Below are positions 13,960 to 31,900 of a stretch of DNA of 64,000 nucleotides, piece by piece. Source of the DNA: Streptomyces sp. NBC_00483 (GTDB lineage: Bacteria > Actinomycetota > Actinomycetes > Streptomycetales > Streptomycetaceae). How positions within the stretch are numbered: position 1 is the first letter of the stretch; each line of letters starts with the position of its first letter. Location of the stretch: positions 1,922,001 through 1,986,000 of the forward strand of contig NZ_CP107880.1 of assembly GCF_036013745.1 (NCBI RefSeq), written 5' to 3'. Made by a program: the position numbers and the translations under genes. The notes beneath the pieces were generated by a model. The model was not told where the DNA came from and ran no database searches. It saw only the letters and a list, made by a program, of their open reading frames with translations.

Positions 13960-14093
13960 CCACGCTTCCTCTCCTCGGGTCCGTCGTGTTGCGTCGTCCA
14001 TGACTCGTACGCACCTTGCGGGGACAGTTCACCACCGCAGGAAGGAGCATGACGGTCCGTCAACATCATGATGCTAACGGGCGGCACCGACAT

Positions 14094-16316: not shown

Positions 16317-16549
16317 GATCAGAAGAGACTCCGGGACAGGGATCGGGCCAGGTCGCCATGGGCCGGACCGTGACAACGTCTGCCGGCGGGGGCATCCGTC
16401 CCGATCCTCCCGCCCCGCCCGTCACCCGGCCAGGGCCGAAGGTCATCACGGGCAGGGCCTCTGTTCCTGTGGCGCACACGCCGCTACCGTCGGTTGTGGT
16501 GGCTTCGTCATGCACCTGCCCGGATCACCGTTGTGCCACGGGGGTGTTC

Positions 16550-19500
16550 ATGGCTCGCAGTGCGCCGACCGTACGAACCGGGGCCAGGCCACATGGCCTC
16601 AGGGGCACACCGCTGGACGACAGGCAGCAGCACAAGGAATGGCTGGCTCTCGTCTCAGTGGACGGCCCCTTCCTCCCGTTGGCGACGCTCACCGACGTTT
16701 GGCCCCACCTCGACGCACTGGACGAGGCAGCGCGGCGGCCGCTCCGCCAAGCCCACCGAGCCTGGCAGTCGGATCCACAGCGATTGCACGACGACTGGAT
16801 CCGGCACCTCCTGAACTCCCTGCTCGGCTGGGGAGACGCGTTACACGAGGAATCGGAACTGCTTGCGCGTCTCAGCGCCCACATACCTGAGCATCCGGAG
16901 GGGCTCACCCCGTCCTTCGCTCTCGTCTCCCCGGACGCCCACGAGCCGGCCACCCCGGAGCCGTCGGAGATCGCACTGCTCGGACTGGTCTGCCCGCCGG
17001 GCACGGTGCCAACGGCACGGCAGCCCGGCGCCGCCTGGGCGGACTCACCCGCGGACCGGCTGGCAGGCCTGTGCCGGCACCACGGCACCGGCCTCGGCCT
17101 TGTCTCGGCCGGCCGCTGGTGGACCCTCGTATGGGCACCCCGCAACGCGCCGACCAGCTACGTCACCTTCGACACCGCGGACTGGGCGTCGGCCGCCGAC
17201 CGCCCGGTGGTTCGCGCCTTCCTCTCGCTCCTCTGTCGACGTCGCTTCTTCAGCGTGCCCGACGACGAAACCCTCTCCCACCTGCTCTCCCACGCGAAGG
17301 ACGAGACCGAGGACCTCACCGAATCCCTCGGACGACAGGTCAAGGAGGCCGTGGACCTGCTTGTCGCGGCCATCGGCCGTAAGGACCAGGAAGCACGCGG
17401 CAGCCACCGGCCGGACCTCGGACGCCAACCCGCCGCCGAGGTGTACAAGGCGGCGCTCTCCACCCAGCTGCGCATCCTGTTCGTCTTCTTCGCCGAGGAG
17501 CGCGGACTGCTCCCAGCGGACAACCCCCTTTACGCCGCGGCCTATTCGGCGAGCGCTCTCTGCGCCGACCTGGAAGCTCAGGCCAGGGCCACGAGCGAGG
17601 AGGATCTGGAGCAGAGCCACGCGGCATGGCACCGTCTGGTCGCTCTCTTCCGCGCCGTGTACCAGGGCGTGGATCACCCGGATCTCCAGGTGTGCGGATA
17701 CGACGGCAGTCTCTTCGACCCCGGCCGCCACCCTTGGCTGGAGCCTGTCGACGGCGGCTCACCGTGGCCGGTCGACGACCGGACGGTGCTGCACATGCTG
17801 CGTGCGGTGCAGTTCGTCACGGTCGGTCGCGGCCGTACTCGCGAGCGCCGCAGGACCGCCTTCGGGCAGTTGTCGATCTCCCAGATAGGCCACGTCTACG
17901 AAGGGCTCCTGGAGTACGAGGGACGCCGCGCGGCGGATGCGGTCGTCGGCCTGATCGGCAAGCCCGGCCGGGAGATCCAGGTGGAGCTTGCCGAGTTGGA
18001 ACGCCTCGCCGCCGAAGCGGCACGGCAACCGGATGCGCCGGTCCGGCTGGCCGCGGCGCTCGCGGACCGGTACAGGAAGTCGGGTCTGGGTACCGCGAAG
18101 GTGGTCGAGCGCGCACTCCGCCCGCTAGGGACCACCGAACGCGAGGAGGGCGTAAGGAAGTTACTGGCCGCGACCAACGGAGATGCCGAACTCGCCGATC
18201 GCCTCCTTCCCTTCCACGGCATCATCCGCCGCGACCTGCGAGGGCTCCCCCTCGTCGTGCCGCCCGGCGGCCTGTACGTCGGCCGCTCGTCGACACGCAG
18301 GGCCACGGGCGCCCACTACACCCCCGAGCGGCTCGCCGCGAAGGTGGCACGGGGCGCGCTGGAGCCCTTGGTCCACTCCCCCGGGCCGCTGGAGACCGCG
18401 GACCGCAGAGCTTGGGTCGTCAAGCCCAGCAGCGAGATCCTCCGACTCAAGATCGCGGATATCGCCTGCGGGTCCGGGGCGTTCCTCGTCGCGTCGTGCC
18501 GGTACCTGGCGGAGAAGCTGGTGGAGTCCCGCGCGCGTGATCAGCGGAGCCGCCTCCTTCGGGAAGCGAAAGACACCGATGCCGATGCCGATGCCGATGC
18601 CGATGCCGATGCCGATGCCGACCGTACGATGCTCCGGGCACGCCGCGAGGTCGCCGAACGTTGCCTGTACGGGGTGGACATCAACCCGCTCGCCGTCGAA
18701 CTCGCCAAGTTCGCGCTGTGGTTGGAGACCGTCGAGCCGGGCATGCCGTTCACGTTCCTCGACGACCGCCTGCTCGACGGCGACTCCCTCGTAGGACTCG
18801 CGTCGTACGCACAGCTTGAGGCCATGCACCTGCTTCCGGGGCGCCGCCGAGTGCACGACCGCTCCCCGGTCGACTTCACCGCGACCGTCCCCCAACTCAC
18901 CGGATTCGGCGGCGATGTGGAGCGTGCCGCGAGGCTGCGCGCGAGCATCGTGGACATCCCGGGTACGTCCCTCGCCGCGCTGGAGGAGAAGCGGCGGGTC
19001 CTCAGCGAGGCCGAGGAAGCGGTGGCGCTCCAGGAACGCGTCGCCGGACTTCTGGTCACCTCCTCACTGGACCGGGCCGCGCGCGGCGAGTCCGGGTTCG
19101 ACGATGCCGCCGTCTCGGCCGCCGACCATGTACGCCGGTGGGGCGAATCCGATCCGGCGGGACGCGCCAAGATCGAACGGCAGATGGACGAGGCCGCCCA
19201 CCGCGGCACACGCAGTGCGCTCGGCACCGACGGCGACGCATGGAAGCCCTTCCATTGGCCCTACCGCTTCCCGGAGGTGTTTCAGCAGGGCGGCTTCGAC
19301 GCCGTCGTCGGCAACCCGCCGTTCCTCGGCGGCCAGAAGCTGACCGGATCCCTGGGCAAGCCGTTCCGCGACTACTACGTCACCGGGATCGGACGATCCG
19401 CGCGCGGCAGCGCGGACCTGGTGGCGTACTTCCTGCTGCGGGCTCATGACCTGCTGAACGAGGGTGGCCAGACGGGGATAATCGCGACGAACACCCTGGC

Positions 19501-20812
19501 GCAGGGGGAAACCCGGGAGGTCGGGATCGATCGACTGGTGGCGGACGGGGTGGAGTTGCGGCAGGCGGTGAAGAGCGCGCCGTGGCCGTCGCGGAGCGCG
19601 GTGCTTGAGTACTGCGCGGTGTGGACCAGCCGGGCGGCGATGCGACCGGGAGGGCTACGTGTCGCGGACGGGGTGGAGGTCGCCGGCATCACGTCGTCGT
19701 TGGATGCGGTGTCGCGGGTGACGGGGGCGGCGCACCGGCTGGCGGAGAACCGGGGGATCGCCTTCCAGGGTTCCATCGTCCTCGGACTCGGTTTCACCAT
19801 GGAGCCGGAGGCAGCACAGGCGCTGATCGCCCGTGACGAGCGGTACCGGCAGGTGCTGTTCCCTTACCTGAACGGACAGGACCTCAACTCGCGCCCGGAC
19901 GGATCGGCAAGCCGGTGGGTGATCAACTTCCACGACTGGAGCGAGGAGCGCGCCAAGAGGTTCCCCGAGGCCTACGAGCAAGTCGTCCGCGACGTCAAAC
20001 CGGATCGACTCAAGGTCAAGTTCAGCAAGAGAGCGCGCGAGCGATGGTGGCAGTACGAGCGGAGTCGCCCTGAGCTGTACGCCGCCCTCGAGAACACGGA
20101 CCGGATGATCGTATTGACGCGGCATAGTAAGTCAGTGATGCCGCTGTCCGTTCGAACTGGTCAGGTTGCGAGCGAAGCGACGGTCGTGTTCGCCTCTGCT
20201 GACTCAGCGATGCTGGCGGTGCTGAGCAGCTCTCCGCACTACTGGTGGGCCATCAACCGGGCCTCGACGATGAAGGGCGACCTGCGCTACACGCCCTCGG
20301 ACGTCTTCGAGACCCTCCCCCGCCCTCAACTCACCCTGCCTCTCCGCGAAGCGGGCACCCGCCTCGACACCCACCGCCGCACCATCATGCCCGCCCGCGG
20401 CGGCCTCACCGCCACCTACAACCTCGTCCACGACGAGAAGTGCACCGACCCCGACATCACCAAACTCCGCACCATCCACCGCACCATCGACGAAGAAGTC
20501 GCCCGCGCCTACGAATGGCACGACCTCCTCGACCAGCCCGGCGGCCTCGACCACGGCTTCCACGACACCCGCCAAGGCCCCCGCTACACCATCGGCCCGG
20601 CCATCCGGCAGGAGATCCTCGACCGCCTCCTCGAAGAGAACCAGCGGCGCCATGCGAGGGAGACCGGCTCACGAAACGTCGCGTCGGGCCAACTGTCCTT
20701 CGAAGAGGAACCACGGCCGACAGGGGCTCCGCGAGCGACTACGACAAGGCGTCCAATGTCTGTACCGTCGCAGTCATCCCCGGCCAACTCACCGAACGGC
20801 GCCGTGCGATGA
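16550..20812 (+). CDS. drmMI: Adenine-specific DNA methyltransferase, DrmMI-like copy A
   Basis: This large (1,420-residue) gamma-class N6-adenine methyltransferase has SAM motif I in DIACGSGAFLVA (about residue 637) and the catalytic motif NPPF in GNPPFLGGQKL (about 922). The C-terminal part should hold target recognition. In DISARM this enzyme marks host DNA as self. It is homologous along its whole length to copy B (24750-28967) but is on the opposite strand and not coupled to drmD. The ATG at 16550 is chosen by alignment with copy B, where the RQQH segment lies at a similar distance from the start; GGGGTG precedes it. Oddities are a (DA)7 run at residues 677-690 from a hexanucleotide repeat, and a 264-bp 3' tract nearly identical to copy B. 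Confidence 0.85.
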   Translation: MARSAPTVRTGARPHGLRGTPLDDRQQHKEWLALVSVDGPFLPLATLTDVWPHLDALDEAARRPLRQAHRAWQSDPQRLHDDWIRHLLNSLLGWGDALHEESELLARLSAHIPEHPEGLTPSFALVSPDAHEPATPEPSEIALLGLVCPPGTVPTARQPGAAWADSPADRLAGLCRHHGTGLGLVSAGRWWTLVWAPRNAPTSYVTFDTADWASAADRPVVRAFLSLLCRRRFFSVPDDETLSHLLSHAKDETEDLTESLGRQVKEAVDLLVAAIGRKDQEARGSHRPDLGRQPAAEVYKAALSTQLRILFVFFAEERGLLPADNPLYAAAYSASALCADLEAQARATSEEDLEQSHAAWHRLVALFRAVYQGVDHPDLQVCGYDGSLFDPGRHPWLEPVDGGSPWPVDDRTVLHMLRAVQFVTVGRGRTRERRRTAFGQLSISQIGHVYEGLLEYEGRRAADAVVGLIGKPGREIQVELAELERLAAEAARQPDAPVRLAAALADRYRKSGLGTAKVVERALRPLGTTEREEGVRKLLAATNGDAELADRLLPFHGIIRRDLRGLPLVVPPGGLYVGRSSTRRATGAHYTPERLAAKVARGALEPLVHSPGPLETADRRAWVVKPSSEILRLKIADIACGSGAFLVASCRYLAEKLVESRARDQRSRLLREAKDTDADADADADADADADRTMLRARREVAERCLYGVDINPLAVELAKFALWLETVEPGMPFTFLDDRLLDGDSLVGLASYAQLEAMHLLPGRRRVHDRSPVDFTATVPQLTGFGGDVERAARLRASIVDIPGTSLAALEEKRRVLSEAEEAVALQERVAGLLVTSSLDRAARGESGFDDAAVSAADHVRRWGESDPAGRAKIERQMDEAAHRGTRSALGTDGDAWKPFHWPYRFPEVFQQGGFDAVVGNPPFLGGQKLTGSLGKPFRDYYVTGIGRSARGSADLVAYFLLRAHDLLNEGGQTGIIATNTLAQGETREVGIDRLVADGVELRQAVKSAPWPSRSAVLEYCAVWTSRAAMRPGGLRVADGVEVAGITSSLDAVSRVTGAAHRLAENRGIAFQGSIVLGLGFTMEPEAAQALIARDERYRQVLFPYLNGQDLNSRPDGSASRWVINFHDWSEERAKRFPEAYEQVVRDVKPDRLKVKFSKRARERWWQYERSRPELYAALENTDRMIVLTRHSKSVMPLSVRTGQVASEATVVFASADSAMLAVLSSSPHYWWAINRASTMKGDLRYTPSDVFETLPRPQLTLPLREAGTRLDTHRRTIMPARGGLTATYNLVHDEKCTDPDITKLRTIHRTIDEEVARAYEWHDLLDQPGGLDHGFHDTRQGPRYTIGPAIRQEILDRLLEENQRRHARETGSRNVASGQLSFEEEPRPTGAPRATTTRRPMSVPSQSSPANSPNGAVR
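18578..18619 (+). repeat. In-frame hexanucleotide tandem repeat GATGCC x7
   Basis: Seven perfect copies of GATGCC encode (Asp-Ala)7 at residues 677-690 of methyltransferase copy A, between motif I and NPPF. Because the unit is six bases, slippage would change linker length without shifting the frame. Copy B has no such repeat at the corresponding place. Confidence 0.95.
20387..20650 (+). repeat. Near-identical 264-bp tract shared with 24855-25118 (inverted)
   Basis: This codes for 88 residues near the C-terminus of methyltransferase copy A. It matches the minus strand of 24855-25118 with about 11 differences, roughly 96% identity; 82 of 88 residues are the same. The rest of the two genes is far more diverged. 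This points to recent gene conversion or recombination between the inverted copies. Confidence 0.85.
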
Positions 20813-20822
20813 GTTCGGCGCA

Positions 20823-21614
20823 TCAGGTGAACGGGTCGTACGGCTCGGGCCAGCCGAAGATCTCACCGAATACCGTGCAGGCCGTGTCCATGCACTCCTG
20901 CGCGGTGGGCAGGTACCCGGTTTGGTGGGCGAGTTGATCCTCCCAGTCCATGACGGGCGGGGTCCGGAAATGATGGCGCCCGGGAGTGATTCCGGTGATG
21001 TCCCGCACCAGCCTCGGGACGTCGTCCGTCACCTTGTCCAGTCGGGCGAGGGCCGCCAGATCGAAGAGATCACGAGGTGCACGACGGTCGGCATAGGCCG
21101 CGATCTTCATGCCGGCGAAGGCATCGAGAGTGGGGACACGGAGTCGGACAGGCCCGGGGACATCGCCGTAACGCAGGTCGATCTCGCGGACTTCGGTCGG
21201 CCAACGGTTCCAGTCCGCGTGGGTGCTGCCGGTGTCGATCAGCTGGATACGCAGACGGAGTCCGTCCTCGGTGACCAACTGGGCGGCGTCGACGGATCCG
21301 ACGTCGGCGAACGCGGGCTCCCAGCGACTGCGCGGGAACTCGCGACGGAGGCGGCGTGGCAGGGCCTTGTCCAGAACCCCGGCGACCATCCTACGATCAC
21401 CGGTCAGGAGGTCGATGTCCTCGGAGAGGCGGCCGCCGGCCTCCGCCGTGGTCAGGTGGGTGCGGGCCAGCGCTGTGCCGCCGAAGAAGACGAGGGGAAC
21501 GTCCAGTTCGGCCAGTGCGTGCAGGACATGACTGATGAGGTGGTCACGCCGGATCTGGTTCTCTGCCGCGCCGTAGTCGGCGGCTACGCGGGCCAGTTCG
21601 TGCCGGGAAAGCAT
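20823..21614 (-). CDS. abiEii: AbiEii-like nucleotidyltransferase toxin
   Basis: The 263-residue protein belongs to the AbiEii/MenT nucleotidyltransferase family, the toxin of type IV toxin-antitoxin systems used in abortive infection. The nucleotidyltransferase signature is complete: GGTAL at residues 45-49 and SEDIDLL at 64-70, followed by FAGMKIAAYADRRAPRDLFDL, which the family uses as a conserved Lys/Asp block. Six bases separate it from the abiEi stop, giving the usual antitoxin-toxin operon order. It is convergent with methyltransferase copy A, whose stop lies 10 bp away. Confidence 0.9.
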   Translation of the reverse strand: MLSRHELARVAADYGAAENQIRRDHLISHVLHALAELDVPLVFFGGTALARTHLTTAEAGGRLSEDIDLLTGDRRMVAGVLDKALPRRLRREFPRSRWEPAFADVGSVDAAQLVTEDGLRLRIQLIDTGSTHADWNRWPTEVREIDLRYGDVPGPVRLRVPTLDAFAGMKIAAYADRRAPRDLFDLAALARLDKVTDDVPRLVRDITGITPGRHHFRTPPVMDWEDQLAHQTGYLPTAQECMDTACTVFGEIFGWPEPYDPFT

Positions 21615-21620
21615 GCCCGG

Positions 21621-22268
21621 TCAGCCTCCTTCGGCGTCGACGAGAGCGCGGGCACGACGCAGCGCGGCCGCCTTGCGCTGCCCCCGGCCCAACTCCTCAA
21701 GCAGTTCGGTGTCGGTGCGTGGCCACAGAGCGCGAAGGGCTTCGGTGACGGCGCCCTGTGACAGGCCGCCGAGAGTGGGCCGGGCCGCCAGGTCGAGGAC
21801 GGTCTGCTCGGGGGTGGTGATCCATCCCTGTGTGAGTTCGGTGTCGGCACGTTCGAGGTCAAGGGTGTCCAGGGTGCGGCGCACGAAGAGGATGCGGCCG
21901 TAGTCGGTGTCGAGCGGCGGCCGCTGCTTGGGAATGGCTACGACCGTCACGGCGACGGCCCGGGGAATGGCACCGAGCACGCGGGCCGCGCCCACACCCA
22001 TCAGCGCCGCACCGCCCTCCCCGTAGTCGCACTGGGCGATTCCGAGCGCGAGCGAATGGAGGTCAGGCCGCCAGGCCGGCGATCCGAGATGACGATCGGG
22101 CACCAGCGCGTAGTAACCCTGAGCGAGCTTGCGGGCGGCCCCATTGCGAACCAGCCGGGCGAATTCCGGTCGGGGCTGGGCGTAGATCCCGGCAGCGTCC
22201 TGGGGCCGGATCACGCGATTGTTCCGACGAGCGAGCTCGGCGGGAACGGCCACCGCACTGCGAGCCAT
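21621..22268 (-). CDS. abiEi: AbiEi-like antitoxin/transcriptional repressor
   Basis: The 215-residue protein has an N-terminal winged helix (VIRPQDAAGIYAQPRPEFARLVRNG, then GYYALVP) followed by the AbiEi C-terminal antitoxin region (TPEQTVLDLAARPTLGG). AbiEi neutralises AbiEii and represses its own promoter by binding inverted repeats. The ATG at 22268 is chosen over an upstream in-frame ATG because GGAGGTGAT sits four bases before it. An inverted repeat lies just upstream at the likely transcription start (22281-22299), consistent with autoregulation. Confidence 0.87.
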   Translation of the reverse strand: MARSAVAVPAELARRNNRVIRPQDAAGIYAQPRPEFARLVRNGAARKLAQGYYALVPDRHLGSPAWRPDLHSLALGIAQCDYGEGGAALMGVGAARVLGAIPRAVAVTVVAIPKQRPPLDTDYGRILFVRRTLDTLDLERADTELTQGWITTPEQTVLDLAARPTLGGLSQGAVTEALRALWPRTDTELLEELGRGQRKAAALRRARALVDAEGG

Positions 22269-22280
22269 CGCTATCACCTC

Positions 22281-22308
22281 CGTTGGGCTAGAGCCAACGC
22301 CCATAATA
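22281..22308 (-). promoter_or_regulatory. Putative abiE promoter and operator
   Basis: On the minus strand a TATTAT -10-like hexamer (22303-22308) is followed at the expected start point by CGTTGG-N7-CCAACG (22281-22299), a perfect 6-bp inverted repeat. No convincing -35 is seen. Position over the start site suits AbiEi autorepression. This is inferred from sequence only. Confidence 0.5.
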
Positions 22309-22575
22309 CTCATGACACTGACGATACTGCCCGCTCGGCGATCCTTTGCGGAGTACGCACCCGACCCGGCACCCGCACACTCACGCAGCGCGCCCCGAGC
22401 TGCGCTCCGGCCCGCCCACTCCCCGGAGCAGCCCGAGCGCCTCGTCCACCTCGCGTTGCTTCCGCCCAGTCAGCCCCGCTGCCGCCACCGCCCCACCAGG
22501 CCCATCGGGCAGCTCTCCGGCCTCGGCCTCCACCCACGCGATCGCGACATCGAACCCGACAAACAGGTCTGCGAC
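22309..22575. other. Gap between abiEi promoter and PIN gene; no gene I can support
   Basis: No antitoxin gene is clear here. A plus-strand frame (22346-22579) ends in a GTGA overlap with the PIN start, as an antitoxin would, but its Ser/Pro/Thr/Arg-rich product looks like a shadow frame. A minus-strand frame ending at 22381 has a more protein-like composition over its last ~60 codons (for example GELPDGPGG and GRKQREVDEALGLL) and may be the fragment of a lost gene. Confidence 0.3.
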
Positions 22576-22974
22576 GTGAGCGGGGCCCTGGTCCTGGACA
22601 GCGAGGGCTTGGCCAAAGCCGTGCAACGCGACCGCGAGGTGCACGAATGGCTGACCGCCGCCCGCAATACGGACCTCCCGGTGATCACCTCGGCCGCGGT
22701 TCTGGTCGAGGTGATCCACCCGAGGATCAACACTCCCGCGCTGGAATGGACCCTGTCCCGGGTACGCGTCGAGCCGGTGACCCAAGCCATCGGCCGGTCC
22801 GCCGCCACCCTGCTGCGGACGGCAGGGCTCCACGGCCACAAGTACGCCATCGATGCCATGGTGTGCGCCACGGCTCTCGCACAGTCCGGCCGCATCACGA
22901 TCCTGACCTCCGACGTCGAAGACATCACCCTGCTGACCGCCGAGCACCCTCGCGTAACCGCCCAGAAGGTCTGA
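22576..22974 (+). CDS. PIN-domain (VapC-like) toxin
   Basis: This 132-residue protein looks like a PIN ribonuclease. An early Asp follows hydrophobic residues (LVLDSEGL), a conserved Glu lies in AAVLVEVIHP, and the C-terminal acidic pair lies in KYAIDAMVCATAL and ILTSDVEDI, making the metal-binding acidic set. PIN toxins cleave RNA and are held in check by a small antitoxin. The GTG at 22576 is chosen because the PIN fold starts there; the frame stays open upstream but that stretch is low in plausible protein sequence. No clear antitoxin is adjacent. It ends 17 bp before the convergent ATPase gene. Confidence 0.75.
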   Translation: MSGALVLDSEGLAKAVQRDREVHEWLTAARNTDLPVITSAAVLVEVIHPRINTPALEWTLSRVRVEPVTQAIGRSAATLLRTAGLHGHKYAIDAMVCATALAQSGRITILTSDVEDITLLTAEHPRVTAQKV

Positions 22975-22991
22975 GCCGCCCCCGCAACGGC

Positions 22992-23459
22992 TCAGGACGC
23001 GGCCTGCAGGTCTAGTTCCGCCCATACTGTCTTGCCGATCGGGTCACGGTCGGTGACGCCCCAACGCGCGGCGACGTGTTCGACGAGGAGGAGGTTGCGG
23101 CCGGAGGCGGCCTCGGGAGGCGCGACCGGGAGAGGGCGCGCAGGTCGCTTCTCGGCGCGGGCATCGGACAGCTCGATACGGAGTACGGGGGCGGAACCGT
23201 CACTGAGCGCGAGGGCGAGTTTGAAGTCTCGACCGGGGAGCGCGGCGTGCCGTACGGCGTTGGCCGCCAGCTCGGCGACGACGAGGGCGACCGCGTCCGA
23301 GACGTCGCCGTACGGGTGCCCCCACGCGTCGAGCTGCTGCGTCGCGAAAGGTCGGGCGAGGCGGGCGCCACGGCGGGTCGACGTGAAGGTGGCGGTGAAG
23401 TCGCGGGTGGGGATGGCCGGTTGGGGCTGGGCTGCCGGGTTGGCAATCTGCTGATTCAT
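22992..23459 (-). CDS. ATP-binding protein (SpoIIAB/anti-sigma-like HATPase)
   Basis: The 155-residue protein is a GHKL-type histidine-kinase-like ATPase of the anti-sigma regulator kind found in dozens of copies in Streptomyces. The N box is VVAELAANAVRHA and a lid region is ASGRNLLLVEHVAARWGV. It is divergent from the XRE/DUF397 pair, an arrangement typical of WhiJ/AbaA-like developmental clusters. The start is the ATG at 23459 before NQQIANP; no strong ribosome-binding site is visible. Here it sits inside a defence island whose XRE partner is broken, so it may be stranded. Confidence 0.82.
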   Translation of the reverse strand: MNQQIANPAAQPQPAIPTRDFTATFTSTRRGARLARPFATQQLDAWGHPYGDVSDAVALVVAELAANAVRHAALPGRDFKLALALSDGSAPVLRIELSDARAEKRPARPLPVAPPEAASGRNLLLVEHVAARWGVTDRDPIGKTVWAELDLQAAS

Positions 23460-23572
23460 GTCACGCAGAGTGGCCAGTCGTCCGTACGGTGAACAGTAAC
23501 CGGGTTGGTACAGCGTGTAGTTGTCGGCTGGTCGCCGTGTTTTGTACGGGCTGTCGGCCGCGACCCGGATGC

Positions 23573-23596
23573 GGGGCAGGGGCAGGGGCAGGGGCA
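23573..23596 (+). repeat. Hexanucleotide repeat GGGGCA x4 in the XRE leader
   Basis: Four perfect GGGGCA units lie 25 bp before the start of the XRE pseudogene, in the divergent gap to the ATPase gene. No function assigned. Confidence 0.85.
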
Positions 23597-23621
23597 GGGT
23601 ACGTCCGGAGGTGGCGGTGAC

Positions 23622-24475
23622 ATGGCGGAGTCGGGTACGGAGGCGGAGACCGAGTCGGCGAGTCGGGACTGGGACGAGGGGATGTCCGGGGTCCTGGAGA
23701 TGGTGGGGCGACAGGTACGGCGCTGGCGCGAGCGGGCGGCGCTGTCGCAGGCGGAGCTGGGGGCGGCGATCAGATACACCGAGCACCAGGTGTCGGCGGT
23801 CGAGCGGGGGCGGCGCATCCCGAAGGCGGCCTTCCCGGAGAAGGCGGACGAGGCGGTGGGTGCGGGCGGGATACTGGCGGCGCTCGCGGAGGAACTGGTC
23901 GAGGTCCGGTACCCGAAGAAGGTCCGGGACCTGAAGCGACTGGAGTCTGACGCCGCCGAGATGGGCACGTACGCGAACCACGTGATCCATGGCCTGCTCC
24001 AGACCGAGGACTACATCCGCGCGCTGCACCGGATGCGGCAGCCCCCGCTGGACGAGGAGATCATCGAGCAGTACGTGGCGACCGGCTGTCCTGACAGGAT
24101 GTCTTCGAGCGGCGGCCCGCTCCGATCCTCACGTTCGTCCAGGAGGAGGTGACGCTGCGACACCCGCTCGGTGGCAGGATGGCGATGCGAGTGCAGCTCG
24201 AACGACTGTTGGAGGTCGGACAGTTGCGGAACGTCAAGATCCAGGTGATGCCGCCGGAGCACGAAGAACATCCGGGGCTGGGTGGCGGGTTCAAGCTGAT
24301 CGACCCCCACCACGGGGCGAAGGTCGGCCACGTCGAGGCGCAGCAGTTCAGTCGCGTGATCTCGGAACGAGAAGAGGTGCGCCGCCTGGAAGCGCAATAT
24401 GGCAGCATCCGGGCGCACGCTCTGACGCCACGGAAGTCGATGGCGTTCATCGAGAGGGTTCTGGGCGAGACATGA
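23622..24475 (+). pseudogene. WhiJ-like XRE regulator (HTH + DUF5753), broken by frameshift and nonsense
   Basis: The first part reads as an XRE helix-turn-helix protein (VRRWRERAALSQAELGAAI, then YTEHQVSAVERG) running into DUF5753 (YANHVIHGLLQTEDYIRAL). The frame is lost at about 24081-24083, where one base is missing relative to the expected VATRL reading, and the first frame ends at 24149. The second frame carries the rest of DUF5753 (VFERRPAPILTFVQEEV, then HPLGGRMAMRVQLERLLEVGQL) to a stop at 24475. Even with the frame restored, a TGA at 24092-24094 interrupts it. Two independent lesions argue for true decay rather than one sequencing error. The 3' end overlaps the DUF397 start (ATGA), as in intact clusters. 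Confidence 0.8.
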
Positions 24476-24855
24476 GGATCAAGCCCTCTACCGGCGAAGT
24501 CACCGATGGCCTTGCGTGGTTCAAGAGCAGCTACAGCAGCAACGAAGGCTCGGAATGCGTGGAGGTCGCGGACGACACCGGTACGGTCCATGTCCACGGC
24601 TCCAAGCGGAAGTTAGGGGCGCGACTGACGTTCGGGGCGAACGAGTGGGCGACGTTCGTTACGCATGTCAGGGGCCAGGAGGGACTGACGAGCACGGGAC
24701 GTACAACGTGGGCGTGGCCTCTCACCGGGGCCGCGCCCACGTTGCCGTGTCAGAAGAGACTCGGAGGCTCTCCCTCAGGCGAAGCCGCCTTCTTCTTCGC
24801 CGCCCCACCCTTCCCCTTCTTGTCGTGCAGCCCGGCTTCGACCTCGACCTTGTAG
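24472..24855 (+). CDS. DUF397 small protein with run-on C-terminus
   Basis: The first ~65 residues are a DUF397 domain (AWFKSSYSSNEGSECVEVAD, later FGANEWATFV). These small proteins accompany WhiJ-like XRE regulators in actinomycetes. The ATG shares ATGA with the XRE stop. Family members usually end soon after the ATFVxxVR segment, but this frame continues for about 55 low-complexity residues, running 106 bp antisense into the 3' end of methyltransferase copy B. The original stop was probably lost when this end was joined to the methyltransferase, so the gene marks a recombination junction. Confidence 0.7.
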   Translation: MRIKPSTGEVTDGLAWFKSSYSSNEGSECVEVADDTGTVHVHGSKRKLGARLTFGANEWATFVTHVRGQEGLTSTGRTTWAWPLTGAAPTLPCQKRLGGSPSGEAAFFFAAPPFPFLSCSPASTSTL

Positions 24856-27800
24856 CGCCGCTGGTTCTCTTCGAGGAGGCGGTCGAGGATCTCCTGCCGG
24901 ACGACGGGGCCGACGGTGTAGCGGGGGCCCTGGCGGGTGTCGTGGAAGCCGTGGTCGAGGCCGCCGGGCTGGTCGAGGAGGTCGTGCCAGCCGTAGGCGC
25001 GGGCGACTTCCTCGTCGATGGTGCGGTGGATGGTGCGGAGTTCGATGATGTCGGGGTCGGTGCACTTCTCGTCGTGGACGAGGTTGTAGGTGGCGGTGAG
25101 GCCGCCGCGGGCCGGCATCACGCCGCGGCGATATCCATCCAACCGATCGCCCAGTTCACGCATGACAGCCGATCGCTTGGGCCGCGGGAAAGGAACAAAC
25201 GCCGTCGAAGGAGTGAACCTGATGTCACCCTTCAAGGAGGCACTCCATTGCGCTGTCCATAGGTACTGCATGGCACTCGAGTGCAATGCGAGATCTGCCG
25301 AATCATCCGTCGCAAAGACAACGAGCATTTGCGAGATGACTTGCCCAGTCTTCACAAATAGAGGCATCTGGGTAGAACTATTCAGCGTGATCGCAAGCAC
25401 GCGATCCATGCCGTCGATCTTGCGATACAGCTCCACTGCCGGCCGAGTGAACCGCCACCAGACCTCGCGCCGCTGCCGATCCTTATTCTGAGCCCGCTCC
25501 GGCTTCACGAGCCTAAGCACCTGCTCGTATGTTTCCGGATACCCCTTCGCTCGCTCTTCGGTCCAGTCGTGGAAATCGATCACCCACCGGCCAGCAGAAC
25601 TATCCGGACGAGAGTTCAGGTCCTGCCCATTGATGTACGGGAACAGCACATCTTGATACCGAACATCTCGCGCGATCATCTCCTGGGCCTCCTCCGCCTC
25701 AAGATGAAACCCCGCACCGTGAACGTAGGAACCAATAAATGCAATCCCCTCGTTCTCTGCCAAGCGATTCGCTACCCCACTCGCGCGCGATTCCGCATCA
25801 AGCGACGAAGTAATCCCACTTGCCGGTACTCCATCAGCCAGGCGTACCGCACCTGCTTCGAGATTGGCTTCACTCGTCCATACAGCACAATATTCCAGCA
25901 CAGCGCTTCGCGAGGGCCAGGGCGCACTCTTCACCGACCGCCTAACGGTCACCCCGTCCGCAACTAGCTGGTCGAGGCCAACTTCACGAGTATTCGCCTG
26001 CGCCAAGGTATTTGTCGCGACAATGCCAGCCTGACCTTGCTGATTCAGTAGCTGATGGGCCCGCAGCAGGAAGTACGCAACCAGATCAGCGCTTCCACGA
26101 TGCCCTCTCCCCAACCGTTCTACCAAATACTCTCGATACGGTCCCCCCATCGCCCCCGTGAGCTTCTGGCCACCCAGGAACGGCGGATTCCCCACCACCG
26201 CGTCGAACCCGCCCCGCTCCTCCCACACCTCCGGGAAGACCAACGGCAAATGCACCGGCTCCCGGTCGAACGCACCCTCCGGCTGCCCCGTCGCCAGCCA
26301 CTGCCCCGCCAGCCGCTCCGCCTTGCGCAGCTCGGCCGCCGCCAGCTCGGCCTCATCCCCCGCGTCGACCACCGCATGCGCAGCCGTAACCCCCGCGAAC
26401 GACAGCTGGTCCTGCTCCCGCTCACCCCGCCCGGCCCCCGCAAGCGCCGCCCCCACCACAAGGTCCGCGAACACCCCCGCCTGTCGCGTCTTCTCGCGCA
26501 CCGAGCCCAGAATGGTCCGCTTCCGCTCCAGTTCCGCGAGCCCTACACCCGGAATCCCGGCCAACTTCCGCCGCTCCTCGGCGACTTCACGCACCACTCT
26601 CCGCACACCGCCCGTGAAGTCGATGCCATCCCCGTGGATCCGCCGCCCCCGCGCCGGGTCCAGGTGCATGGCCTCGACCTGCTCCACGGACGTGATTCCG
26701 AGCAGCGCGTCCCCCGCCACCAAGCGGTCGTCCAGGAACGTGAACGGCCGCTGCGGGTCCATCGAGACCAGCCACAGCGACAGCTTGGCCATCTCGACGG
26801 CCATGGGGTTGATGTCGACGCCGTACAGGCAGTGTTCGATGATCTGCCGTCGTGCCTCGACCATCACCGGGTCCGCCTCCGCCTCGACCGCCGAGGCGGA
26901 CAGGGAGCCGGCCGACTCCAGGTAGGTCTTCGCCCGTACGTCCCCCTCCCGGCTCCACGCCTCGACCAGCGCGCCCGCGAGATAGCGGCAGGCGGCGACA
27001 AGGAACGCCGCCGAGCCCATCGCGATGTCCGCGACCTTCAGTTTCAGCAGCTCTGACGACGGCTTCGGACACCACTGCTTACGTTCCGACGTCGTCAGCG
27101 GGCCGTGCTCCTGCTCGTACACCAGTGGTTCGAGCGCGCCGTCCGCGACTTCCTGCGCCAGGGACTTCGGGGTGTAGTGGGTGCCCGTGTTCTTCCGCAG
27201 GGCGGACTCGGTGACGTACAGGGCGCCCGCGCGGATGACGACCGGCAGGCCACGCAGGTCGGACCGGATGATGCCGTGAAAAGACAGCAGCCGCTCCGCG
27301 AGATCGAGGTCGCCGCCCGTCGCGGCGAGCAGCTTGCGGCGGGCCTCCCCTCGTACCGACTCGTCCATCGGCGCGAGCGCCTTCGCGAGCTTGCCCGCCG
27401 TGCCGATGCCGGTGGTCTTGTTGAACTCCTCCGCCAGCGCCCCGGCCAGTCCGGCCACGTCCGTACTCCTGGCCGCCTTCGCCTCCAGGTCCGTGAGCAG
27501 GACCTCGGCCTCCAGGCCCGGCTTGCCAATCAGGCCGACGACGGTGTCCTCGGCCCGTCGGCCCTGATAGGAGAGCAGGCCCTCGTAGACGTAACCGATC
27601 TGCTCGACGTCCAGCGTCCGGAACGTCAGACGCCTGCGCTCCCGCCGCTTGCCCGTGCCGATCCAGACGTGCTGCACGGACTGGAGCATGTGGAGCACCG
27701 TGCGGTCGTCGATGGGAAGCGGGTCCGTCGGGTCGCCCTCCCCACTCCCCCGCCCCTCCAGCCATGGGTACGTGTCGGGATCGAAGATCGAGCCGTCGTA

Positions 27801-28967
27801 GGCGTGCAAGGAGAGGGACGGGTGGTCCACTCCCCCGTACACAGCGTTGAAGAGGGCGATGAGGCGGTGCCAGCCGGAGCGGGTCTGCTCCAGGTCCTCC
27901 TCGGTGGTCTCGCGGGCGCGCTGTTCCAGGTCCGCGCAGAGGCGGCCGGCCGAATAGGCCTGTAGGTACAGCTCGTTGTCGCTGGGGAGCAGGCCGCGTT
28001 CCTCGGCGAAGAGGAGGAAGACGACGCGCATCATGATGGCGACCGCGCCCCGGTAGACGTCCTGCGCGGGCACGTCGGCGAGGCCGCGGCCGCCCTTGGC
28101 GCGCTCCGTGACATCCGCCCGGCCGATGGCCTCGACGAGGAGCTCCACTGCTTGGCGCACCTGTACGCCGAGGGCGTCGGTGACGTCCTCCTGGTTGTCC
28201 AGGGACTCGCGCAGGAGCGGCAGGAGCATCTCGTCGTCGGCGACGGCGAAGAAGCGGCGGCGGGAGAGGAGCGAGAGGAAAGCGCGGACGACGATGCGTT
28301 CGGCCTGCTCGGTCCAGGCCACGGTGTCGAAGACCGCGGAGGTGGTGACGCCGCCGCGCGGCGCCCAGACCAGGGCCCACCAGCGGCCGTCGGTGACCAG
28401 GCCGAGTTCCGTGCCGTGGTGGCGGCAGAGGTGGGCCATGCGGTCGATGGGCGTGGCCGACCAAGGCGAGTCGGGGACGCGGCGGGCGGGGTGCTGACCA
28501 GCCGGGACGGTGAGGCCGAGGATCGCGCAGTCGGCGGCCAGGACGGAGCCATCCTCACCGGCGCCTTCCAGCGCCACCGAGTCCGGGTCGAGCAGTGCGA
28601 ACGTCGGCGCGACGCGGTCGTCGTGCTCGGGCACATCCACGGCGAGGGCGTCCGTCAGGGCCGCGCCCTCCGTCAACGCGTCACCCCAGCCGAGGAGTTC
28701 GTCGAGGACGAAGCGGATCCAGGACTGCTGTCCTGCGGCCGGGGCGGACTGCCACACGCCGTGCTCGTACCGCAGTCGGACGCGTACCGGCTTGTCGACG
28801 GAGTCCAGCTGCGGCCAGGTCTTCAGGAGGACCGGCAGGGTCAGGAAGGGGCCGGAGACGTCGACCAGACTGAGCCAGTCGAGGTGCTGCTGCCTGCCGT
28901 CGGGAGTCGGCGCCCCGCTGCGGGGACGGCCCCGGAACGTACGGGGCGTGGACTGGGTGGTGCTCAC
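24750..28967 (-). CDS. drmMI: DISARM adenine methyltransferase DrmMI, copy B
   Basis: This 1,405-residue gamma-class N6-adenine methyltransferase is translationally coupled to drmD through a GTGA overlap, as expected for the class 1 DISARM methylase that protects host DNA. Motif I reads DIAMGSAAFLVA (about residue 649), so the second Gly of the usual GSGAF is Ala. The catalytic NPPF lies at about 927. From just after NPPF to about residue 1,280 the GC content falls to roughly 53-58%, far below the rest of the gene, marking a recombined block in the presumed target-recognition region. The last ~90 residues match copy A almost exactly. The stop overlaps the run-on DUF397 frame. Confidence 0.9.
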   Translation of the reverse strand: MSTTQSTPRTFRGRPRSGAPTPDGRQQHLDWLSLVDVSGPFLTLPVLLKTWPQLDSVDKPVRVRLRYEHGVWQSAPAAGQQSWIRFVLDELLGWGDALTEGAALTDALAVDVPEHDDRVAPTFALLDPDSVALEGAGEDGSVLAADCAILGLTVPAGQHPARRVPDSPWSATPIDRMAHLCRHHGTELGLVTDGRWWALVWAPRGGVTTSAVFDTVAWTEQAERIVVRAFLSLLSRRRFFAVADDEMLLPLLRESLDNQEDVTDALGVQVRQAVELLVEAIGRADVTERAKGGRGLADVPAQDVYRGAVAIMMRVVFLLFAEERGLLPSDNELYLQAYSAGRLCADLEQRARETTEEDLEQTRSGWHRLIALFNAVYGGVDHPSLSLHAYDGSIFDPDTYPWLEGRGSGEGDPTDPLPIDDRTVLHMLQSVQHVWIGTGKRRERRRLTFRTLDVEQIGYVYEGLLSYQGRRAEDTVVGLIGKPGLEAEVLLTDLEAKAARSTDVAGLAGALAEEFNKTTGIGTAGKLAKALAPMDESVRGEARRKLLAATGGDLDLAERLLSFHGIIRSDLRGLPVVIRAGALYVTESALRKNTGTHYTPKSLAQEVADGALEPLVYEQEHGPLTTSERKQWCPKPSSELLKLKVADIAMGSAAFLVAACRYLAGALVEAWSREGDVRAKTYLESAGSLSASAVEAEADPVMVEARRQIIEHCLYGVDINPMAVEMAKLSLWLVSMDPQRPFTFLDDRLVAGDALLGITSVEQVEAMHLDPARGRRIHGDGIDFTGGVRRVVREVAEERRKLAGIPGVGLAELERKRTILGSVREKTRQAGVFADLVVGAALAGAGRGEREQDQLSFAGVTAAHAVVDAGDEAELAAAELRKAERLAGQWLATGQPEGAFDREPVHLPLVFPEVWEERGGFDAVVGNPPFLGGQKLTGAMGGPYREYLVERLGRGHRGSADLVAYFLLRAHQLLNQQGQAGIVATNTLAQANTREVGLDQLVADGVTVRRSVKSAPWPSRSAVLEYCAVWTSEANLEAGAVRLADGVPASGITSSLDAESRASGVANRLAENEGIAFIGSYVHGAGFHLEAEEAQEMIARDVRYQDVLFPYINGQDLNSRPDSSAGRWVIDFHDWTEERAKGYPETYEQVLRLVKPERAQNKDRQRREVWWRFTRPAVELYRKIDGMDRVLAITLNSSTQMPLFVKTGQVISQMLVVFATDDSADLALHSSAMQYLWTAQWSASLKGDIRFTPSTAFVPFPRPKRSAVMRELGDRLDGYRRGVMPARGGLTATYNLVHDEKCTDPDIIELRTIHRTIDEEVARAYGWHDLLDQPGGLDHGFHDTRQGPRYTVGPVVRQEILDRLLEENQRRYKVEVEAGLHDKKGKGGAAKKKAASPEGEPPSLF
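24855..25118 (-). repeat. Near-identical 264-bp tract shared with 20387-20650 (inverted)
   Basis: Partner of the tract in methyltransferase copy A, in inverted orientation about 4.2 kb away. The two tracts flank the AbiE/PIN/WhiJ-like cargo, so homologous recombination between them could invert that cargo while swapping the final codons of the two methyltransferase genes. Confidence 0.85.
25120..26155 (-). other. Low-GC mosaic block inside methyltransferase copy B
   Basis: Two 60-base lines counted by hand (25261-25320 and 25681-25740) give 53% and 55% GC, whereas flanking coding sequence is near 70%. The block begins within about 15 codons after the NPPF motif and ends at the start of the conserved tract shared with copy A. 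It stays in frame. This is the signature of replacement of the specificity part by DNA from another source. Boundaries are by eye. Confidence 0.7.
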
Positions 28968-31900
28968 TGCACGGCCTCCCGGCGGGGAACGACGAAGACG
29001 ACGGCGACGGGGAAGAGCAGGGGCTGCGGGGTGGCGTAGCGGGCGGCGATCGCCGCGGTCTCGCGCTGCTTCTCGCTCTCCAGGGCCTCCAGCCGCTGCT
29101 CCCAGTTCTCGCGGTCACGGCGCTGCTGCTCGGCCTCGTCGAAGGCCAGCTCCAACTGGCCGTCCCCTTGCGGAGCTTGACCGAGGGCGGCGCGCAGCGA
29201 TGCGCGGAACCGGTCGATGTTGGCGGCGATCCGTTCGGATTCGGCGCGGCGGCGGTTTTCCAGGCGGCTCTCCAGGGCGGTCAGGCGGTTGCGGGCCCGC
29301 CATTCCAGAGAGGAGACCAGGCCTTCGCCGAGTTGCGGCCAGGCTTCGGCGAGACGTTCCTGGACGAGTGGGGAGGCCTGGGCGGAGTCGGCGAGCGCGC
29401 TGTCGAGGAGGTCGCGGACCGTGGTGGTGCGCTCCAGGCGGGCGAAGCGGGCCGCGCTGTCGTTCGCTTCGCGCCGGATCCAGCCGCCTGCCTGGAGGAC
29501 CTCCTCGTGCAGGCGTACGCCGTCCGCGCCGACCAGGACGAAGCGGGCGAAGGCGCCGACGAAGGCGGTCTCCAGCTCGGGGTGGTCGCTGACCACGGCG
29601 GTGACGCGGGCCAGGCCGGTCTGGTCCTGGTTCCAGACGGCGGCGCGCAAGAGCCGCGTGGACATGGAGACCAAGGGGTGGCCGAGGTGGGCGAGGACGA
29701 CGTCGTCGCGGCCCTTCACGTTCTGCGCGTCGAAGGTGACGGGCCGCTGGATCTCGGGGCGCAGCTTGTCGGCGAGACCGTGTGCGGCGCGCTCCCAAGA
29801 GCCGGTGAGGGTGGGCACGCGGTAGAAGCCCGGGGCGAATTCACGTTCGTCGACGGTCGGGGTGATGGCCTGCTGGCGGGCGAGCGGGAGGGCAGTGGAG
29901 ACGACGCGGGCGATCTTGGGCGGGGTGATGCCGAGGGTGGAGACGGTCGCGTCGACCTGTTCTTTCAGCTTCATGGCCTGCGCCTGGACGTCGCGTTCGG
30001 CGGCGACGTTGCCGCCGCGGCGGGCCTTGCGGTCGGCGTACAGCTCGGCTCGTTCCACGTCGAAGTCGGCGGAGAGATCGCCGGTCATGCGGCGCTGGAC
30101 GGCCTCGGCGAGGACGGCGTTGACCTTGCCGAGGTCCTCCTCCATGCGGGCGACCTTCTTGGCGACGCGGGCGAGGAACTCCAGGTCCGCGTCGTAGGTG
30201 TCGGCGGTCTTCTCGTAACCGCTGCCGATGAAATGGACGACTTCGGGGGCGGTGGTCTGGCCGTAACGGTCGATGCGGCCGATGCGCTGTTCCAGCTTGT
30301 TGGGGTTGAAAGGAATGTCGTAGTTGACCAGGCGGTGGCAGTGCCGCTGGAGGTCGATGCCCTCGCTGGCGGCGTCGGTGGCGAGCAGGATACGGACCGG
30401 GTTCTCGGAAGGTTCGGCCTGGAACGCGAGACGGAGGTGCTCGCGTTCCTCGGCCTTCAGGCCGCCGTGCAGGAGGGCGACGCGGTCGCCGCCGAGACCT
30501 TGGTCGCGCAGGAGGTTCTGGAGCCAGATCTGGGTGTCGCGGTACTCGGTGAAGATCACGACGCGTTCGTTGGTCCAGAGCTCGCCGTCTGGGATGCAGA
30601 CGGCCTTGACGTAGGAGATCAGTTCGCCGGCTTTGGAGTCGGCCTGGGCCTGGTGGCGCAGCGCCCATTCCTGCATCTGCTCCAGGAGGGCCGCCTCGTC
30701 GCCGTCCGTGCCGGGCTGGAGGGTGGTGGCACGGGCGATCGCGTCGTCCTCGGCCTCCGTGAGGGGCTCGTCGTCGAAGTCCGCGTAGTCCTCGAAGAAG
30801 GTCTCCTGCCAGTCCTCGATCTCCTCGGCGGCCTGCTGCTTCTTCGTCCGCAGGGTGTCGAGGTAGACAGCGATGGTGCGGGCGAAGGCGTCCGGGGAGG
30901 AGAACAGGCGCTTCTTGAGGAGCAGGGTGACCAGGTCGGCCGCTTTCCTTCCGCCCTTGTGGCGGGTGGCGAGCTTGGCGCGGCGCAGGTGCGCGTACTC
31001 CTTGAGCAGGCCGTGGATGCGGCGCTCGTCCTCGGTGTAGTCGACGGGAAGGGCGAGGGTGCTGCGCTCCAGGAAGCGGCGGGTGCCGTCCGGTTCGCGG
31101 ATGTCGGTCTTCAGGCGGCGGACGACGGTGTCCTTGACTGCCTCCGGGTCCGGTTCGACGCCGCGGGCGAACCGCTGGCTGTCGATGATCTCCAACAGGG
31201 CGGTGTACGACTCCTGGTAGCCGTTGTGCGGGGTGGCGGAGAGGAAGAGCCGGTGCTCGAAGTGCGGGGCGAGGCGGCGGATCAGCTTGGTCTGCTGGGA
31301 GTCGACGGGGTAGAGCTGCTTGGGCGCGGAGGGCGCCACATGGTGGGCCTCGTCGAGGATGAGCAGGTCGAAGGCGCGCTTGGCCGGGGTCGCGGCGGGC
31401 TCGGCCTCCTCCTGGGGCAGCACCTCGGCGAGCAGCCGCTGCGCCTTGGGGCCGCGCAGCCAGGGGAGGCTGACGATGGCCCGCGGATAGATGTTGAACG
31501 GGTTGGCGGCGCTGCCGTGACTGCGGCGGACCTCGGCACAGCGCTCGGAGTCGATCACGGTGAAGTCGAGACCGAACTTCTCCTCCATCTCGTCCCGCCA
31601 CTTCACGGTGAGACCGGCGGGGCACACGATCATGATCTTGTGGGCGCGGTTGCGGAGGATCATTTCCAGGGCGACCAGACCGGCCTCGATGGTCTTGCCG
31701 AGGCCGACGTCGTCCGCGAGCAGCAGGTTCACACGAGGCGCGGCCACGGCTCGGGAGACCGGCTCCAGCTGGTACGGCTCGACGGCGACGCCGGAGCGGA
31801 ACGGGGCCTGGAGGGTGCGTACGTCCGCCGAGGTCACAGCGGACCAGCGGACCGCGTCCAGGAACGCGGCGAGGCGCTCAGGCGGATCGAAACCGGTACG

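Follow-up and report, generated by a model that had tools for sequence, protein, structure and literature searches.

We identify a class 1 DISARM operon in which two intact, full-length genes for the methyltransferase DrmMI, copy A (+) and copy B (-), converge on each other within the 64,000-nucleotide stretch analysed here (the window). The preliminary description of this DNA as an inverted pair of full-length DrmMI genes is thereby borne out. Our preferred reading, which we regard as probable, is a static pair of two complete methyltransferases with differing specificity modules and a 3' tract homogenised by gene conversion; relatives of the locus would switch by means of a recombinase. For class 1 DISARM in Actinomycetota, we consider it very likely that a dedicated recombinase, of the tyrosine or serine type, flips the 3' end of drmMI with a convergent, headless TRD cassette as its partner and so changes the self motif, that at least two unrelated recombinases serve this role, and that the window pair is a recombinase-free relative of such loci.

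Two drmMI genes in one DISARM operon

All five class 1 genes, drmD, drmMI, drmA, drmB and drmC, are present in the window; what sets it apart from class 1 DISARM is an additional drmMI, also full-length, that lies in inverted orientation between drmMI and drmA. Calls for drmD, drmA and drmB exceeded curated NCBIfam cut-offs, and drmMI and drmC were called through PADLOC. The features of the locus are as follows.

7422..8183, -, drmC, with a PLD domain (PADLOC PDLC02588, 348 bits; PF13091)
8180..10390, -, drmB (NF038324, 709 bits, cut-off 240)
10096..14001, -, drmA (NF038325, 1398 bits, cut-off 950)
14094..16376, -, unknown 760-aa protein, preceding drmA in three relatives too
16550..20812, +, drmMI copy A, by family a full-length MmeI/Eco57I-type adenine methyltransferase (frame open from 16358; presumed start 16550)
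20375..20650, +, 3' tract of copy A, downstream of the TRD (codons 1340-1431)
20823..21614, -, AbiEii nucleotidyltransferase toxin gene
21621..22313, -, AbiEi antitoxin gene
22219..22974, +, PIN-domain ORF whose 5' part overlaps abiEi; true start probably further in
22992..23446, -, small ORF, putatively ATPase-like (anti-sigma-type) as read from its sequence
23505..24855, +, gene presumed XRE/DUF5753-like, seemingly split over two frames, then a DUF397 gene (by Pfam)
24750..28967, -, drmMI copy B, at the position usual for the operon, beside drmD
24855..25130, -, 3' tract of copy B, downstream of the TRD (codons 1280-1371), probable conversion donor
28964..32209, -, drmD, SNF2 helicase (NF038317, 1349 bits, cut-off 610), adjoining drmMI copy B

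The interval between the copies had been called a toxin-antitoxin cassette; AbiEii and AbiEi are indeed there, but so are the PIN ORF, the ATPase-like ORF and the XRE/DUF397 pair. The 760-aa protein had no PADLOC, Pfam, PHROGs or NCBIfam match at the thresholds used.

Both copies match the PADLOC DrmMI model PDLC02643 (A at 1586 bits, B at 1700 bits, E=0), neither frame contains a stop codon, and PF07669 and PF20473 were matched in the drmMI copies. By family, A and B are predicted adenine methyltransferases, with motif I reading DIACGSGAFL in A and DIAMGSAAFL in B and motif IV reading NPPF in each. The PF20466 TRD covers codons 1145-1325 of A, counted in frame from 16358, and codons 1082-1264 of B. 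A PDB sequence search with copy B returned two weak methyltransferase matches.

Overall, the A and B proteins are 57% identical, in line with the earlier statement that the genes are much more diverged away from their ends. An equivalent A/B pair is present in another species (G122). Relative to these G122 counterparts both copies look to be under purifying selection, with dN/dS of 0.205 for A (dS 1.33) and 0.215 for B (dS 0.95) by the Nei-Gojobori method, values that are rough because dS is near 1. Identity between B and G122B is 83% in the N-terminal part, 47% from motif IV through the TRD and 86% in the tail, and four other B orthologues give 81-82%, 55-61% and 83-89% for the same parts; judged by these identities, the specificity module of B is replaced relative to its orthologues. 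Copy A lies on a long branch (1.18) outside the B clade, with unsure placement, in a tree that omits several drmMI genes (including L103, L105, L114 and G632). Its N-terminus is nearest G122A (63%) and its tail nearest B (88.6% aa). We rejected a recent duplication of B as the origin of A on account of that branch and that N-terminus.

Probable gene conversion of the 3' tract

The tracts of A and B are identical at 261 of 276 nt (94.6%), share exact runs of up to 67 bp and are separated by 4204 nt, which agrees with the 4-kb cassette first described. The previously given 264 bp at about 96% is the same tract minus a more diverged edge, the first 12 bases holding 4 of the 15 differences; with the edge included, the figures are 276 bp and 94.6%. 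Third codon positions agree at 86 of 92 codons (93%). Taken in 40-column windows, third-position identity reaches 90% in the two that sit on the tract; in the others, where 30 or more codons are aligned, it is 25-65%, the window that contains the tract end (59%) included. The two short windows at the ends score 24% of 17 codons and 0 of 8. The 10.24-Mb genome contains no tract-level match beyond the two copies, the further matches being 46 bp at 80% and 91 bp at 72%, and other inverted matches between A and B are 70-76% alike.

On these comparisons, gene conversion best explains the near-identical tract, as the preliminary description had suggested, given that tails from other species and the G122 pair are less alike. 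Compared with six tails from other species, the tract of A or B is 75-88% identical (third positions 57-79%); the B tract is 77.5-87.7% identical to five B orthologues (third positions 59-79%); and G122A and G122B are 77-79% identical to each other over the tract (third positions 59%). That strong purifying selection alone, with no conversion, made the C-terminal module near-identical in both copies is improbable. Of the three parts compared, the tail shows the strongest conservation (79-89% aa between species), and part of the likeness between the A and B tails is due to constraint, since tails are conserved across the clade at 72.5-87.7% between species. However, third positions agree at 93% between A and B, against 46-79% in all between-species comparisons of the tract and 59% in the G122 pair.

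Conversion probably ran from B to A. At all five differing sites where the six other sequences agree, B carries the shared base. The direction is ambiguous at the remaining ten, where the other sequences disagree among themselves; in three cases, five of the six carry the base of A.

Inverted cassettes and recombinases in related loci

We collected 142 drmMI loci, of which 135 are distinct and 123 evaluable, and a convergent second copy occurs in 9 of the 123. Seven of these second copies are headless 3' cassettes and two are full-length pairs, namely the window and one relative. The relatives' cassettes are convergent and lie between drmMI and drmA, the same place and orientation as copy A in the window. 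Each headless cassette and its drmMI have inverted repeats in common, with a longest exact run of 31-404 bp, and the repeat arms are in phase and open both ways at all seven loci. At L114 the exact runs are short, none above 31 bp, within a 75% match, and at both L105 and L114 the cassette covers just the later part of the TRD. TRD types found in the expressed gene of one strain recur in the silent cassette of another.

A recombinase gene of one of two families stands beside the cassette at 7/7 loci and at 0/2 full-length pairs; it is of the tyrosine type at three and the serine type at four, with the serine gene of L097 interrupted. Pfam, applied to the recombinases of four of the seven loci, gave PF00589 or PF00239 with PF07508. 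Five of the seven loci supplied the recombinase queries, and for them the link is therefore not a blind one. None of the 114 evaluable loci that lack a second copy has a recombinase of either family above 150 bits in the stretch compared per locus, which extends a variable distance beyond drmMI (1.5 kb or more), such that a remoter recombinase would be missed. Weaker serine recombinase matches in cassette-free loci (L148, 69 bits; G378, 54 bits) fall below that line, and remoter serine recombinases in G449 and G440 are not beside drmMI. The search for the serine family covered the class set, and that for the tyrosine family the genus sets.

Of the 135 distinct entries, twelve could not be evaluated. 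These include the two pieces of G337, which has a recombinase and a cassette but contig ends inside both drmMI and the cassette, and L087, whose contig ends inside drmMI; G472, one weak class match, was left out of the set. The class 1 DISARM on pNOCA01 of Nocardioides sp. JS614 showed no further copy of drmMI (E<=1e-3), and the only match there to either recombinase family was one of 33 bits, to an integrase some 8 kb upstream. In the plasmid collection, the serine family went unmatched at E<=1e-40.

In these relatives, the recombinase would invert the 3' end of drmMI and swap the TRD, or part of it, used by the DISARM methyltransferase. Examples of such candidate switch loci are found in Streptomyces sp. 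P3, Streptomyces sp. LBL and Thermomonospora umbrina. For two of the seven loci, G225 and G632, we searched 100 surrounding genomes apiece with the 3' region, and this yielded no sister strain in the flipped state. The initial proposal of the inverted drmMI pair as a specificity switch fails in this genome but appears apt for the family, by way of the truncated inverted 3' cassettes and recombinase of relatives.

A probably static pair in the window

Flipping the window tract would leave both TRDs in place, as in each gene the tract comes after the TRD: the TRDs end at codons 1325 (A) and 1264 (B), and the tracts begin at codons 1340 and 1280. Specificity inversion requires a repeat upstream of or within the TRD, and the window repeat is neither. 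The genome contains no member of the tyrosine or serine recombinase families found beside drmMI in relatives, and the window locus, including the interval between A and B, has no match to either family at E<=1e-4. We therefore reject the proposed change of specificity by flipping this tract, and likewise, as neither family is matched there, a recombinase or its remnant between the copies. A flip would exchange C-terminal codons, as anticipated, but only 53 and 34 of them, beyond the TRD.

Copy B occupies the usual place, and A, inverted between drmMI-B and drmA, would represent an older, distinct lineage. The last ~276 bp ahead of the variable tails has been homogenised, by what we take to be gene conversion with B as the probable donor. 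We propose that the two enzymes are both made and that each marks its own motif as self, in a pair that is static rather than a switch; it would be a full-length, recombinase-free version of two-TRD DISARM.

Another explanation, possible although we doubt it, is that copy A descends, at full length, from a switching cassette, the window being a degenerate, frozen form of an ancestral TRD switch. Such a history would fit the place and orientation that A shares with the relatives' cassettes and the replaced specificity module of B. However, the N-terminus of A is its own, deeply diverged and closest to that of G122A, and a truncated cassette lacks such a part; moreover, the interval between A and B contains no match to the two recombinase families (E<=1e-4).

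It is quite unlikely that the window tract is an active inversion site at which 4.2-kb flips swap the tails, reverse the AbiE/PIN segment and affect the enzymes or their expression. The 276-bp inverted arms with exact runs of up to 67 bp are long enough for RecA-type recombination, and related loci combine in-phase inverted repeats with a recombinase. Yet the TRDs would be unmoved by a flip, neither recombinase family occurs in the genome, and G122 keeps the pair at 77-79% tract likeness, which argues that the tract is not kept as a site there. An inverted pair or tract created by misassembly, to which inverted repeats are known to be prone, is extremely improbable given a genome in a single 10.24-Mb contig, copies that differ along their whole length and at 15 tract sites, and an equivalent pair in G122.

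Discussion

Our data place a second DrmMI specificity module beside the first in two forms, the full-length pair of the window and the headless 3' cassette with a recombinase that sets some relatives apart from class 1 DISARM at the same place. Inverting Type I restriction-modification loci carry duplicated hsdS genes with inverted repeats (PMC7394358). Their share among Type I systems, from 3.9% up to about 6%, is of the same order as the 7/123 drmMI loci, although the drmMI sample is not random. The drmMI relatives resemble these loci in having silent inverted TRD copies beside an expressed gene, in-phase repeats and a recombinase. They differ in that hsdS encodes a separate S subunit with two TRDs, whereas the gene that would be switched in DISARM encodes a single-chain MmeI/Eco57I-type methyltransferase. 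The window itself differs further, having no such recombinase and a repeat after the TRD.

MmeI and other Type IIL enzymes have PF20473 and PF20466 in common with drmMI, which differs by sitting in a DISARM operon. Many short PF20466 proteins among the matches listed are named 'type IIL restriction-modification enzyme MmeI' in their source. These are the best 120 of 1750, 1352 and 1246 matches; two of the three protein searches scored only the candidates with most shared words, and the searches admitted 0.55-1.75 times the query length, so that full-length drmMI was excluded and the lists lean to short proteins. Judging from the missing methyltransferase motifs, a PF20466-only protein should not methylate alone. 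In BREX, pglX inversion loci comprise a Type IIG-like methyltransferase, a truncated inverted copy and a recombinase. BREX is a different defence system, and A and B match NCBIfam PglX weakly (at most 43 bits against cut-offs of 400-900).

We found no report in the literature of such a specificity switch in DISARM. DISARM is thought to separate self from phage DNA by methylation and, reasoning from restriction-modification, a phage escaping it once would leave marked as self. If the switch we propose is real, a heritable TRD flip would create mixed populations in which no single escaped phage could sweep, as has been argued for inverting Type I systems. Just after a flip, the chromosome would be unmarked for the new motif, which implies either that the effector is held back or that unmarked self DNA is not killed. 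The TRD flip would therefore be a hard test of the logic of DISARM.

Gene order and inverted tract of the drmMI pair

The window (C1:1922001-1986000 of a single-contig 10.24 Mb genome) carries its DISARM operon on the minus strand.

Genes of the DISARM locus in the window
28964-32209, minus strand, drmD
24750-28967, minus strand, drmMI copy B
14094-16376, minus strand, gene for a 760-aa protein just before drmA, no family match
10096-14001, minus strand, drmA
8180-10390, minus strand, drmB
7422-8183, minus strand, drmC

The interval from copy B to drmA holds, in order, an XRE/DUF397 pair, an ATPase-like ORF, a PIN-domain ORF, AbiEi, AbiEii, drmMI copy A and the gene for the 760-aa protein. Because copy A lies on the plus strand and copy B on the minus strand, the two genes converge tail to tail, and gene order and strands thus bear out the arrangement in the preliminary description. 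Relatives of the 760-aa protein, at 52-55% identity with 73% in one stretch, occupy the same position in the related loci G015, G039 and G227; no counterpart was matched in the locus of G122, a relative from another species with its own full-length pair (G122A, G122B). An XRE/DUF5753-like gene, apparently split over two frames (23505-24855, plus strand), adjoins the DUF397 gene, and matches to this ORF occur 3' of drmMI in many related loci. At 34176-36776 (minus strand) lies a gene for a GmrSD-type protein with an extra O6-methylguanine methyltransferase DNA-binding domain (PF01035), adjoined by DUF4365, PDC-M02B and a UvrD-like gene; the same group stands beside DISARM in G015, G039, G122 and G227.

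Comparison of the window with itself confirms the inverted full-length drmMI pair and its near-identical 3' tract, giving a single strong inverted pair (20375-20650 and 24855-25130; 276 nt, 4204 nt between) that is identical between A and B at 261/276 bases. Eight of ten weaker inverted pairs, 70-76% complementary, link corresponding parts of A and B. Third codon positions are 90% identical in two tract windows versus 25-65% in the other 40-column windows holding at least 30 aligned codons, and tract-level matches in the 10.24 Mb genome are confined to these two places. The target-recognition domain (TRD; PF20466) spans codons 1145-1325 in A and 1082-1264 in B, and the tract codons 1340-1431 and 1280-1371, beginning after the TRD in both copies. 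The proposed flip at the tract would swap the last 53 codons of A with the last 34 of B and reverse the AbiE/PIN segment; it would move no TRD. A switch of specificity therefore does not follow from the tract repeat, contrary to what had been suggested for the window.

Probable gene conversion and apparent function of the two copies

The likeness of the A and B tracts by itself proves little, because the tail is conserved across the clade. Tract identity is 94.6% between A and B, 77.5-87.7% between B and five B orthologues, and 79.0% within the G122 pair. At third codon positions A and B agree at 93% (86/92) versus 46-79% between species, so silent sites have also been homogenised in this genome; set against 59% for the G122 pair, this supports the gene conversion that had been suggested. 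At all five differing sites where the six other sequences agree, the base in B is theirs and that in A is unique to it. The remaining ten sites show no single pattern; in three, A has its base in common with five of the six others. The tail of A is closest to B (88.6%, protein), and its N-terminus to G122A (63%; next best about 50%). The pattern is consistent with conversion of A by B, the direction being less certain than the event. Since the pair holds the same places in G122, the sequences suggest that it predates the split of the two species or passed between them later.

Both copies appear functional, with open frames, a motif I (DIACGSGAFL for A, DIAMGSAAFL for B) and NPPF as motif IV in each (NPPY in G122A); between the window and G122 species, dN/dS of A is 0.205 and that of B 0.215, with dS high. 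B is 83% identical to G122B over the N-terminal part, drops to 47% between motif IV and the end of the TRD, and returns to 86% in the tail; against four other B orthologues the values are 81-82%, 55-61% and 83-89%. Judged by these identities, the specificity module of B is a replaced one. A and G122A share 64%, 68% and 79% over the same parts, with no mid-region dip. We consider it probable that the two copies in the window form a static pair with two specificities, its tail homogenised by conversion, and not a switch.

Truncated cassettes and recombinases in relatives

Loci were collected by DrmMI match alone from 295 genus genomes, of which 30 matched (counting the window's own), from 394 class genomes, of which 32 matched (again counting its own; one weak match left out), and from GTDB contigs (79 loci kept out of more candidates). 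This gave 142 loci, 135 distinct, of which 123 were evaluable, reaching the drmMI 3' end and at least 1.5 kb beyond. Nine of the 123 have a convergent second drmMI. Two are full-length pairs, those of the window and G122, with no recombinase of the tyrosine or serine families at either; in seven the second copy is truncated to a headless 3' piece, or cassette, and all seven share the order drmD, drmMI, inverted cassette, recombinase, drmA. Extra sequence lies between recombinase and drmA in G225 and L114, and inside the recombinase in L097, whose gene is in two parts (12532-12702 and 18390-19535) with about 5.7 kb of other sequence between them. Direct second copies were also seen: L089 (Nonomuraea sediminis) has drmMI at 2929-6717 and 10001-13978 with a 1388 bp direct repeat at 80.5%, and L080 (Prauserella alba) has drmMI at 1982-6013 and, on the same strand, the beginning of another drmMI (14516-16006) that is cut off by the end of the analysed sequence.

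Truncated loci: longest exact inverted run (further runs), recombinase type
G632 (Thermomonospora umbrina): 404 bp (192), serine
L103 (Streptomyces sp. LBL): 334 bp, tyrosine
G225: 178 bp (93, 41), tyrosine
G110 (Streptomyces sp. P3): 167 bp (98), tyrosine
L105: 154 bp, serine
L097: 83 bp (50), serine
L114 (the same locus as G604): 31 bp, serine

In all seven, the arm has the same phase in gene and cassette and the joined frame is open both ways, the arms checked in L097 and L114 being tail arms. Because one arm terminates within the TRD in G110, G225, L103 and G632, inversion would there swap the remaining TRD and tail. The L105 arm falls within the second TRD half; since the L105 and L114 cassettes hold that half only, just the last TRD part and tail would change. 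Ahead of its TRD variation, L097 carries further, shorter exact runs of 34, 27 and 27 bp. The L114 switch is the least sure, having no long arm.

Four of the seven recombinases were assigned by Pfam, to PF00589 or to PF00239 with PF07508. Among 394 class genomes the serine family (E ≤ 1e-50) has five matches: those of G337, G632 and G604 (76-78% identity) all adjoin a drmMI cassette, and the remoter G449 (52%) and G440 (46%) lie away from drmMI. The tyrosine family (E ≤ 1e-40) has two matches among 392 genus genomes, G110 and G225, both beside the cassette; an overlapping second draw of 315 genomes returned the same two. Neither family has a match in the genome of the window.

G337, spread over contigs C16 and C12 (L187, L210), is an eighth case: the recombinase and part of a cassette lie at the end of one contig, and part of drmMI lies at the end of the other. 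In Streptomyces sp. SID3212 the contig terminates within drmMI (L087), and a partial TRD protein (P0170) is listed on a separate contig. Such breaks may be the expected effect of a long inverted repeat, or have other causes; because these contigs end in drmMI or cassette near the repeat site of relatives, switching loci are possibly under-counted in short-read assemblies.

Searches with three of the cassettes as queries (E ≤ 1e-20) matched 1750, 1352 and 1246 proteins; among the best 120 of each, the majority have only PF20466. The matches serve as leads and not a census, because the length limit of the search leaves out full-length drmMI and many matches sit on short contigs as possible gene fragments, others being on chromosomes or long contigs. 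P0135 and P0001 are 100% identical to the cassette proteins of G110 and G632, respectively. In the Streptomyces sp. MBT59 cassette (P0159) the arm shares 96.8% identity with the G110 arm, and the TRD and tail match the G110 full-length gene at 90.2% (244 aa) versus 53% for the G110 cassette; P0137 (Streptomyces sp. NPDC087851 cassette) is 90% identical to that cassette. Likewise, the short protein P0140 (Streptomyces sp. B1866) matches the L103 full-length TRD and tail at 80% versus 47% for the L103 cassette, to which P0121, P0122 and P0128 are 82-87% identical. The G632 cassette TRD is 82% identical to the L097 full-length TRD; no protein among the matches listed pairs a near-identical arm with the G632 full-length TRD (best 72%). 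The same TRDs appear to occur in expressed genes and short cassettes, as inversion predicts; transfer or unequal exchange could also produce this.

Relation to known inverting systems

Inversion is known at pglX loci of BREX. We found no report of inversion in DISARM in the literature searched, including 'drmMI' papers, with bioRxiv and most subscription papers outside its scope; the accessible portions of PMC9716671, PMC12003011 and PMC12707154 describe no DISARM switch. Inverting Type I systems combine duplicated hsdS with inverted repeats, and for several of them the locus is described as including a recombinase gene; the reported share of Type I systems that have the repeats is 3.9% to about 6% (PMC7394358, in the portion available). 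The relatives' loci appear to work likewise, yet belong to DISARM. DISARM methylation has been proposed to let DrmAB distinguish self from phage DNA (PMC9142583, in part). As far as the accessible text of PMC7365801 goes, this Cutibacterium acnes announcement describes what may be a DISARM, together with a methylation signal left unexplained; drmMI of a second strain is split there by a genomic island and not by an inversion.

The preliminary reading of an inverted drmMI pair as a specificity switch thus fares differently by locus: in the window the tract follows the TRD and no recombinase of the two families was matched, whereas truncated cassettes, in-phase arms and a recombinase at 7/7 loci favor it in relatives. 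We think it very likely that the drmMI family holds what appears to be a true recombinase-linked specificity switch, and it is this apparent switch that makes the finding merit follow-up.
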